NCBI RefSeq assembly: GCF_014696675.1
Contig: NZ_JACJQN010000004.1
Location: 186,001-250,000, forward strand
DNA from: Phormidium tenue FACHB-1052
GTDB lineage: Bacteria; Cyanobacteriota; Cyanobacteriia; Phormidesmidales; Phormidesmidaceae
DNA length: 64,000 nt
Direction: 5' to 3'
Positions 41,496-43,576 of this stretch are shown here, one piece after another; the stretch's first letter is position 1; each line of letters starts with the position of its first letter. A model generated the notes under the pieces. The model saw only the letters and a program-made list of their open reading frames with translations. It did not search any database and was not told the DNA's origin. The translations under genes and the position numbers were made by a program.

Positions 41496-41724
41496 CGAGT
41501 CTCGGTAGTGCCGGGAGAGGCGATCGCCTCATCTTGTGCTTTGTGAACGGCATAGAGGCGATCGCTTTAGCCATTTTTGTTGATACCAGAAATCAATAGC
41601 TTCAGTCCTTCGAGTCGGCTGCAGCCGACTCGAAGGACTGACTAGTGGCAGAAATATTCCTGCGCCACCCCTTGCACCAAACTTCAAGACCCGCTTGCCA
41701 GCAAGCGCAATAAAACTTAATCTT
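41496..41724. other. Intergenic stretch with palindromes
   Basis: Region upstream of the iron-stress locus, lacking a gene. It contains two HIP1-type octamers, the 40-base palindrome at 41602-41641 and a smaller inverted repeat CGCTTGC/GCAAGCG at 41693-41708. Confidence 0.4.
41602..41641. repeat. Perfect 40-base palindrome
   Basis: Each 20-base arm starts TCAGTCCTTCGAGTCGGCTG and the second is its exact complement, meeting at CTGCAG with no spacer. There is no T-run. It could form a cruciform or a very stable RNA hairpin. Confidence 0.8.
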
Positions 41725-41760
41725 TTACTATTGAGAATCATTCCGATCTATGGTCAAATC
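41725..41760 (+). promoter_or_regulatory. Fur-box-like site with possible promoter
   Basis: ACTATTGAGAATCATTCCG at 41725-41743 agrees with the classical Fur box at 12 of 19 positions, including GA-AATCATT. TTGAGA (41729-41734) and TCAAAT (41752-41757) are 17 bases apart and could be the -35 and -10. A second TTCTCAAT at 41776-41783 complements ATTGAGAA. This fits iron control of the isiA remnant and isiB. Confidence 0.5.
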
Positions 41761-41813
41761 TTTTTATTGAGTTTCTTTCTCAATAAGCGTCGTATTGATT
41801 CTGACTTTAGTAA

Positions 41814-41990
41814 GGATTCGTTAGCTATGCAAACCGATGGCAATCCCGAAGTGCCTATGACTGGTGGGCCGGTAATGCCTGCTTTATTTTGGCGCTTCTC
41901 TTCTTGCAGGGCCGTCTGTGGCATGCTCTGCGCGCCATCGGGTTTGACTTTCGCCGGGCAGAAAAGGCCCTGAGCGTCGTCGAATCCTAG
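41814..41990 (+). pseudogene. isiA: isiA (CP43') C-terminal remnant
   Basis: A 58-codon open frame without a start codon, preceded by TAA and ended by TAG at 41988. It encodes [20 protein letters not shown] followed by [20 protein letters not shown], which matches the last membrane helix and tail of the chlorophyll-binding iron-stress protein IsiA/Pcb (F-F-x-L-Q-G-H-x-W-H-A-L-R-A-x-G-F-D-F). The location directly upstream of flavodoxin is that of isiA in isiAB operons. The first five helices are missing, so this is the scar of a deletion that kept the promoter side and the 3' end. Confidence 0.75.
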
Positions 41991-42119
41991 CTTCAGCGTT
42001 GGGTTAACTTCTCCTCTCTTGGGGGGCACCTATAGGGCTCCAACATCCTGCCCCCCTTTCCTCTTCATTTATGACTGCAACCCTCTGCCTCTGCTGTTGC
42101 GACCCCTTGCGTTGACGAC

Positions 42120-42153
42120 CGGTTGGGCAAATCAGAGCAGTGTTGCCCAACCG
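42120..42153. repeat. Hairpin in the isiA-isiB interval
   Basis: CGGTTGGGCAA and TTGCCCAACCG form a perfect 11-bp stem with a 12-base loop. There is no T-run. A shorter palindrome, CGGCCCATGGGCCG, follows at 42170-42183. In isiAB operons such structures can attenuate or process the transcript between the two genes. Confidence 0.6.
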
Positions 42154-42246
42154 ATCGCCCAGCTATGACCGGCCCATGGGCCGTCAGCTTTAGCGAGCAG
42201 TCTTTCAAGGTTCCATTAGTTTCATTCATTCAGGACAAGGTTTCCC

Positions 42247-42759
42247 ATGACTAAGATTGGCCTCTTTTTTGGCACCCAGACCGGCAATACCGAAGCGATC
42301 GCCGAGGCGATTCAGGCGGAATTTGGTGGCGATGGCGTGGTCACGCTACACGATGTCGCCGATGCCAGCCCTGACGACTTTATCGGCTACCCCTGCCTAA
42401 TTATCGGCTGCCCCACCTGGAATATCGGTGAGCTGCAATCGGACTGGGAGGGTCTGTATGACGAGCTGGACGAGATTGACTTCAGCGGCAAGCAGGTCGC
42501 CTATTTTGGCGCAGGCGACCAGGTGGGCTACGCCGACAATTTTCAAGATGCCATGGGCATTTTGGCCGAGAAAATTACCGAGCTGGGAGCCACTACCGTC
42601 GGCTACTGGCCCACCGATGGCTATGACTTTAGCGACTCTAAGGCAGTGCATAACGGCAGGTTTGTCGGGCTGGCCCTGGATGAAGACAATCAGCCGGAAC
42701 TGACGGGCGATCGCATCAAAGCCTGGGTCACCCAGCTGAAATTGGCCTTTGGTATCTAG
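42247..42759 (+). CDS. isiB: Flavodoxin
   Basis: FMN electron carrier replacing ferredoxin under iron shortage, accepting electrons from photosystem I. 170 residues, the usual long-chain flavodoxin. The FMN phosphate loop TQTGNTEAIAEAI (about 10-22), the W-containing loop CPTWNIGELQSDW, and the Y-loop GAGDQVGYADNF are intact. It lies downstream of the isiA remnant and a Fur-box-like site, so iron-regulated expression is likely. Confidence 0.97.
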   Translation: MTKIGLFFGTQTGNTEAIAEAIQAEFGGDGVVTLHDVADASPDDFIGYPCLIIGCPTWNIGELQSDWEGLYDELDEIDFSGKQVAYFGAGDQVGYADNFQDAMGILAEKITELGATTVGYWPTDGYDFSDSKAVHNGRFVGLALDEDNQPELTGDRIKAWVTQLKLAFGI

Positions 42760-42829: not shown

Positions 42830-43576
42830 ATGACCCTTTCCACCTGCCCCGATGCCCTGTGGCTCAACGTCAGCCCCAGTTTTGAGCGGTTTGATCACAA
42901 GCTGCTGGGCCGCCTAGCCCGCCATGTCGAAGTTGCCCATTGGGCCTACCGTCAAACCCCCGATGAGCCCAGTTCCCTGGATATTGCTGTTACCCTGCTG
43001 CACGATTACCTCAAAGGTCACAACCGGCCAGTACACCTGATGGGACACGGTCTAGGCGGGCTGGTGGGGTTGCTCTACACTCGCCAAAACCCCCATCGGG
43101 TCAAGTCGCTAACGCTGCTCTCGGTAGGCGTTAACCCGATGGTCGATTGGCAAGCCCATTACTACGCCCAACTCGAACGCTTGCCCTGCCAGCGGCGGCA
43201 GGTGCTGACCCAAATGGTCTATAGCCTGTTTGGCCACCAGGCACGGCCTTTGGTGCCTGGCTGGGTCAACCTGTTAGAGCAGGATTTGCTGCACTCGGTA
43301 TCGCCTCACTCGCTGCTGAAGCGGGTTAGCCTCTGCCCCGGCAGCGTAGCGGTGCCCCTGCTCATTTGTGGTGGCGAAGCAGATTCTATCGTTGATCCGA
43401 CTCAAATTCAGGGATGGCAGCCGTGGCTCAAGGGAAGCGATCGCACAGCTTTATTTCCAGGCCGTCACTTTTTTCATGCCAGGCATCCCCATCCTGTAGC
43501 CAGCCAAATTTTGAGCTTTTGGGGAACCACTGACAACCTGCTAGTCGCACCTCAGAGCCTTAAAACGGTTTCCTAA
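42830..43576 (+). CDS. Alpha/beta-hydrolase-fold protein lacking the usual nucleophile (IsiC-like position)
   Basis: 248 residues with the alpha/beta hydrolase pattern: HLMGHGLGGLVGLLYTRQNP at the nucleophile elbow, then PLLICGGEADSIVDP as the acid strand and GRHFFHARHP as the His loop. The elbow is GHGLG rather than GxSxG, so residue 74 (the normal Ser) is Gly: either inactive as a hydrolase or with another function. It follows isiB by 70 bases; a hydrolase-like gene, isiC, is reported behind isiAB in some cyanobacteria, and this may be its counterpart. Confidence 0.75.
   Translation: MTLSTCPDALWLNVSPSFERFDHKLLGRLARHVEVAHWAYRQTPDEPSSLDIAVTLLHDYLKGHNRPVHLMGHGLGGLVGLLYTRQNPHRVKSLTLLSVGVNPMVDWQAHYYAQLERLPCQRRQVLTQMVYSLFGHQARPLVPGWVNLLEQDLLHSVSPHSLLKRVSLCPGSVAVPLLICGGEADSIVDPTQIQGWQPWLKGSDRTALFPGRHFFHARHPHPVASQILSFWGTTDNLLVAPQSLKTVS

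Follow-up and report, generated by a model that had tools for sequence, protein, structure and literature searches.

An isi operon of Phormidium tenue FACHB-1052 reduced to an isiA scar, with its promoter region, a conserved hairpin block, flavodoxin and hydrolase genes retained

The window analyzed here, a stretch of 64,000 nucleotides from Phormidium tenue FACHB-1052, contains an isi operon that has almost certainly lost isiA and kept the rest. We consider it very probable that isiA was destroyed and that isiB, a hydrolase gene, the promoter and a conserved hairpin block were kept, the block most likely functioning at the level of RNA. A deletion of 861 bp, bounded by imperfect direct repeats of 12 bp, disrupted the antenna gene. 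Because the promoter, the hairpin block, isiB and the hydrolase gene remain, iron starvation should still induce flavodoxin and hydrolase, now without the antenna or IsrR. Across the genus about seven losses of isiA appear to have occurred, suggesting that IsiA is dispensable in those lineages, and the promoter, hydrolase and hairpin block would still be under selection. Observations that count against this explanation include a sigma-70 scan that misses the promoter and, in one relative, G002, changes in the block at 9 of 65 positions.

In the scar (41827-41990), the first 17 codons of isiA, ATG included, run into the part coding for helix VI and tail. The start codon and first nine codons (MQTDGNPEV, 41827-41855, forward strand) were assigned by translation and by alignment to relatives G025 and G023. 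In the remainder (41856-41990, forward strand, stop codon at 41988-41990), YDWWAGNA leads directly into helix VI and tail. A base has been lost at 41854-41855, where the window has GTG-CC-TAT and G025 has GTGAGTTAT; YDWWAGNA is therefore read in another frame than MQTDGNPEV. The frameshift is an event separate from the deletion unless it is a sequencing error, in which case a short in-frame gene of ~54 residues would remain. Since 17 N-terminal residues and the last ~40 are present, the break is internal to isiA. The original prediction had read a 58-codon frame before flavodoxin as the sixth helix and tail of IsiA, which was correct, but had described it as lacking a start codon, which was not: the ATG at 41827 opens the IsiA N terminus.

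Similarity of the fragment to IsiA was significant. Residues 301-341 of the IsiA from G025 matched the frame 41856-41990 with 80% identity (E 7e-15, small database). The IsiA/Pcb model TIGR03041 matched with an E value of 2e-8 over model positions 264-321, in a span that begins upstream at 41781 and passes through 5 stop codons. At 36 bits the remnant is far below the curated cut-off of 335 bits and does not qualify as a full-length six-helix IsiA. The Pfam model PSII gave E 0.0066, below its cut-off, with the 44 residues alone. Descent from isiA at the isi locus was established by the alignment of both gene ends and by the intact isiA present at the same site in 14 relatives. The relatives carry full-length isiA or other deletions there, not the same short gene.

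Alignment to intact relatives showed that exactly 861 bp of isiA are missing, equal to 287 codons and in frame. In the intact genes of G001, G011 and G013, a 12-bp repeat near the start (AATGCCCGCTTT) and one near the end (AATGCCCACTTT) are identical at 11 of 12 positions and lie 287 codons apart. The same pair was recognized in ten of the other 11 intact genes with 8-10 of 12 matching positions; the comparison in G004 was set aside, as the wrong anchor had been taken. At the junction in the window (41874-41885, forward strand, placed by comparison with relatives), a hybrid of the two repeats is present, AATGCCTGCTTT. Slippage or recombination between the direct repeats would be the natural explanation for the deletion. 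The breakpoint is thus readable, as had been proposed, in the form of a gap bounded by imperfect repeats that are still seen in intact relatives.

Upstream of the scar, a putative isi promoter was read from the sequence at 41731-41759 (forward strand). It is composed of TTGAGA (41731-41736), a 17-bp spacer and a TG-extended TCAAAT (41754-41759), and it overlaps the Fur-box-like sequence TATTGAGAATCATTCCGAT. An inverted repeat, TTATTGAG-N7-CTCAATAA, likewise read from the sequence, follows at 41764-41786; it is putatively a second Fur-box-like site or an operator over the presumed transcription start, and was retained with small changes in all 8 isiA-less loci described below. The promoter region is conserved in the genus, for example with 2 differences in 58 positions between G002 and G024, and the sigma-70 scan reported no site at the putative promoter. 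These AT-rich promoter-like sites are putative Fur boxes, and control of the operon by iron is predicted from the resemblance and conservation of the promoter; of the Fur-box-like site predicted upstream, the AT-rich sites and their conservation stood, and its identity as a Fur site is presumed. A perfect 38-bp palindrome, CAGTCCTTCGAGTCGGCTGCAGCCGACTCGAAGGACTG, lies at 41603-41640 between the upstream gene and the isi promoter and is perhaps the terminator of that gene or a repeat element.

Downstream of the scar, isiB (42247-42759, forward strand) is an intact long-chain flavodoxin gene, assigned by two NCBIfam flavodoxin equivalogs over cut-off. Compared with G025 it differs at 11, 7 and 43 first, second and third codon positions; judged from its sequence, the gene is under constraint. 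The loss of isiA with retention of isiB and the promoter region is therefore as originally described. The third operon gene, in the isiC position, encodes an alpha/beta hydrolase (42830-43576, forward strand; Abhydrolase_1 E 3.5e-10). A hydrolase gene with 46-51% identity was found downstream of isiB in 4 of 11 regions fetched from other genera (G120, G138, G142 and G155, belonging to two other families); it was not found in the other 7, five of which also lacked isiB. We infer that the gene is the isiC of the literature (PMC8635728). The isiAB(C) gene order is present in the window, with isiA as a remnant. Between the scar and isiB, at 42071-42115 (forward strand), lies the decayed remnant of a small CxxC ORF. 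A small CxxC..CPTC ORF is found between isiA and isiB in G023 and G024, and inspection by eye showed comparable ORF starts behind isiA in other cyanobacteria; this ORF may correspond to Synechocystis ssl0461.

Twenty-five relatives from the genus were examined. Three (G008, G018 and G020) had no DNA match to the site, and the loci of the 22 others were fetched. By tblastn, 14 of these carried full-length isiA (G001, G003, G004, G007, G010, G011, G013-G016, G021 and G023-G025) and seven carried scars or nothing (G002, G005, G006, G012, G017, G019 and G022); one, G009, was unreadable because the site falls at a contig edge. With the window included, seven distinct deletion junctions were counted by eye. 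The isiA coding sequence is entirely gone from G005 and G022, the junctions of G017 and G019 join other parts of isiA, G002 retains the first 62 codons with frameshifts, and G006 and G012 have one junction in common. A shared deletion in the latter two was not rejected (AU p 0.10), and the tree places G012 beside the genome of the window. The fewest changes of isiA state came to 7, with direction not enforced, on a tree of the two flanking genes with 22 rows and several branches open. The distinct junctions show that loss of isiA is recurrent in the genus. The site had originally been described as a single natural isiA knock-out; the loss was borne out, yet it is one of several in the genus.

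The site also varies in its other genes. isiB was lost from the site as well in five of the isiA-less relatives (G002, G006, G012, G017, where a fragment remains, and G022). The reverse of the window, with isiA present and isiB missing from the site, was observed in G003 (L065) and G007 (L069); both genomes have flavodoxin-like DNA matches at another location (G003:C2 and G007:C179). All 8 losers, the window and the seven relatives, retain the isi promoter and the downstream hydrolase. In G022 (L081) isiA, isiB and the hairpin block are all gone and the isi promoter stands directly before the hydrolase gene, an arrangement that is possibly a rewiring to a single-gene unit. In G019 (L079, 3509-3814) the two ends of isiA are joined in a single open frame of 101 codons; the sequence of this fusion has drifted, and it is therefore probably a pseudogene.

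The genome of the window comprises 5.82 Mb in 36 contigs with a completeness of 99.99%. A search of the whole genome for an intact isiA, as had been suggested, found none; CP43, CP47 and the scar remnant were the only members present. The antisense RNA IsrR (RF01419) was called where its covariance model scored above 52 bits antisense to isiA. All 14 intact isiA loci scanned in the genus scored above the gathering cut-off, at 68-93 bits, and three further loci with only an isiA end gave no match. The covariance model did not find IsrR in the window, where Rfam as a whole returned nothing above the gathering cut-off. As IsrR lies inside isiA in every intact relative, it was lost along with isiA, in agreement with the original prediction.

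Between the isiA remnant and isiB, a conserved block at 41998-42065 (forward strand) is composed of GTTGG, a CU-rich tract and a GC hairpin, and is a candidate 3'UTR RNA. It is 68 nt long in the window and 66 nt in most loci. The CU-rich tract (42008-42020) reads TTAACTTCTCCTCTCTT, and the hairpin (42021-42056) has the stem GGGGGGC..GCCCCCC and the loop GGGCTCCAACA. The string GCTCCAACA was present in 22 of 23 genus loci and CTCCTCTCT directly preceded it in all 22; within the block alignment the loop is invariant by construction, as the rows were collected by the loop string. Seven of the 8 losers carry the block, G022 being the one without it, and G002, G006, G012 and G017 have kept it in the absence of both isiA and isiB. 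Promoter retention was dropped as a proof of RNA function, since the downstream hydrolase explains it equally well.

Divergence of the block was compared with that of neighboring sequence in hand-chosen pairs by one-sided, uncorrected Fisher tests, with gaps not counted. Between G019 and G015 the block differed at 0 of 69 positions and the isiA remnant at 64 of 297 (p 3.6e-7). Lower divergence of the block than of the remnant was also obtained for G002/G024 (9/65 versus 48/184, p 0.029), G000/G023 (2/68 versus 13/109, p 0.03) and G017/G024 (3/64 versus 17/116, p 0.032). For G006/G012 the block differed at 2 of 66 positions, compared with 18 of 73 in the leader and 0.37 at fourfold sites (p 0.00018), a comparison that is weaker than its p value because G012 stands beside the genome of the window on the tree. 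In pairs with intact isiA, the block differed at 0-6 of 66-68 sites and the isiA 3' end at 3-13 of 110. Intact isiA is thus about as conserved as the block, so that the comparison with decayed remnants is the only informative one, and more distant intact pairs reached isiA values similar to those of G019 (G015/G010, 42/198; G015/G007, 20/99). As a control for the leader, 45 intact pairs had a mean divergence of 0.13 and a maximum of 0.23; G006/G012 differed at 16 of 62 positions (~0.26).

The single-strand fold of the block was no more stable than that of shuffled sequences (z 0.14), a terminator scan did not call it, and no covariation was detected in the stem within the genus, where tract and loop are nonetheless present in 22 of 23 loci. 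A covariance model of the block matched 21 of 25 genus genomes, 20 of which had supplied training rows. Over 31 sources it matched the window and each of the 14 intact genus loci, with weak matches to three other loci (E 0.1-0.9). Over 386 genomes of the phylum it matched the genome of the window only, a weak negative because the first look scored 12 of ~1970 candidates. Of 16 loci inspected by eye in other genera of the family, 3 were unreadable; among the remaining 13, the tract was present in 6, next to stems of a very different kind, and missing or incomplete in 7. Across the phylum, 40 loci were fetched and 31 parsed, at least four of these 31 wrongly (L169, L183, L197 and L202); a CU-tract downstream of isiA was marked automatically in 8 of the 31, and some of the tracts were simple TC repeats. 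Among the open-access papers returned by literature searches, no title or abstract opening reported an isiA 3'UTR RNA or comparable isiA scars.

The complement of the CU-tract, AGAGAGGAGA, occurs 8 times in the genome of the window: once in the block, three times before start codons and four times elsewhere. Of the 7 sites outside the block, these three start 15-17 nt ahead of the ATG; the genes that follow were identified with NCBIfam and Pfam as psaA, a second psaA and psbE. In G000, G012 and G025 together, 27 matches were found, 24 of them outside the block. Eleven of these 24 precede an ATG-started ORF of at least 60 codons within 40 nt, and eight of the 11 ORFs are psaA or psbE, those of G012 and G025 being named by near-identical N termini. 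One of the 11 matches precedes a CDGSH iron-binding protein of G025. The reversed pattern, used as control, gave 20 matches, four before ORFs of at least 60 codons (five at 40), none of them psaA or psbE. Predicted duplex energies were -22.6, -24.6 and -25.4 kcal/mol, whereas the strongest value among 42 ORF starts of the window was -18.0; as the targets were chosen by match, the energies are no independent test. The psaA site is equally conserved where no block was found, in G022 and in G033 (another genus, without isiA), and the same holds for the psbE site in G008, G018 and G022. Within 3 mismatches, the psbE site was matched in 20 of 25 genomes and not found in the block-bearing G010, G015, G019 and G021. 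Nothing therefore indicates coevolution of sites and block. The tract could pair with the sites of psaA and psbE, and judged from sequence such pairing would appear specific. Two or three psaA-like genes are present in most genus members (genus loci; L260, L216), and one psaA-like gene leader is almost invariant across the family.

Several readings of these data were weighed. That the block acts at the RNA level as a partial terminator or processing site is the most probable single role, at somewhat under even chances. It would then be an intercistronic terminator or mRNA-stability hairpin tuning read-through into isiB and the hydrolase gene, a reading that we favor to the same limited degree. 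The hairpin with a short T-rich tail between isiA and isiB fits this role, as do the monocistronic isiA and dicistronic isiAB transcripts known from Synechocystis in the account cited above (PMC8635728), and with the hydrolase kept in every loser, there is still a gene on which a leader element could act. A stem and a U-run would suffice for termination, yet loop and CU-tract are kept in 22 of 23 loci of the genus, the tract persists with quite different stems in the 6 loci of other genera, and neither the terminator scan nor the fold statistic singles out the block. Alternatively, the block may be an iron-controlled small RNA, produced from the isiA 3'UTR or, in loci without isiA, directly from the isi promoter. 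Its UUCUCCUCUCUU stretch would base-pair with the ribosome-binding sites of psaA and psbE, lowering the synthesis of the iron-rich photosystems. The placement of the 10-nt complement before psaA, the second psaA and psbE, the excess over the reversed pattern and the duplex energies argue for it, as does retention of the block in the four relatives that lack isiA and isiB. The target sites are as conserved in genomes where the block was not found, however, the psbE site was not found in four block-bearing genomes, and a CU-tract can pair with any GA-rich Shine-Dalgarno site. We regard the small RNA as a tentative possibility, with a similar chance that the CU-rich 5' part of the block doubles as a 3'UTR-derived RNA, and leave the remaining probability to a neutral or other role. 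The more specific proposal that the isiA 3'UTR of this family is an iron-controlled RNA whose CU-rich seed represses psaA and psbE and which repeatedly outlived its host gene is slightly more doubtful still. If it were true, the isiA deletion would have turned a protein-coding operon into a promoter-sRNA-flavodoxin/hydrolase unit.

It is unlikely that the whole site is neutral debris in which promoter and block persist only because the deletions are recent. The remnant in the window differs at 12-17 of 109 positions, slightly more than the intact isiA ends with 3-13 of 110, and on this reading the deletion in the window would be young. The remnant of G002 is more diverged, with 38-48 differences in 184 positions against 13-36 in intact pairs, and its promoter differs at only 2 of 58; the leader of G006/G012 lies beyond the maximum of the intact pairs, with the block nearly unchanged; and promoter and hydrolase were retained in 8 of 8 losers and the block in 7. 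Continued translation of the remnant as a short IsiA-derived membrane peptide is highly improbable. The deletion is in frame and open frames join the IsiA ends in G019 (101 codons) and G017 (48 codons), but in the window the frameshift separates the start from helix VI, no frame joins both ends in G002, G005, G006, G012 or G022, and G019 has lost residues that intact IsiA proteins share, with 39% identity in the first 33. The genus provides a set of natural isiA knock-outs whose remnants have decayed to different extents. With it one can ask when the IsiA antenna can be dispensed with and which parts of the iron-stress operon are truly selected. The block that was kept suggests an RNA link from iron starvation to photosystem synthesis, which can be tested.

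Among the closest known systems is the isiAB operon of Synechocystis and Synechococcus, which also has isiC and isiD (PMC8635728). The order isiA-isiB-hydrolase is the same, an iron-responsive promoter is expected and IsrR lies inside isiA in the relatives; unlike in that operon, isiA of the window is a scar, IsrR is gone, and flavodoxin and hydrolase are now the first genes. IsaR1 (NC-181) of Synechocystis is an iron-induced small RNA of 68-70 nt (PMC6202907, PMC3516471). Compared by description only, the block resembles it in size, expected iron regulation and predicted photosynthetic iron-protein targets, whereas IsaR1 (TSS 3164320) lies far from isiA/IsrR (1518034) in Synechocystis and the block adjoins the isiA remnant. 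ApcZ, a small RNA derived from the 3' end of apcABC, was shown experimentally (PMC8136909); like it, the block would be an RNA located 3' in a light-harvesting transcript and with targets in photosynthesis, its role being predicted. Actuatons (PMC5386190) are mRNAs arising by read-through from an abundant small RNA, and the isiA-less loci have a similar order of promoter, RNA block and then isiB or hydrolase. Unlike in actuatons, this arrangement arises by gene loss and is known here from sequence alone.
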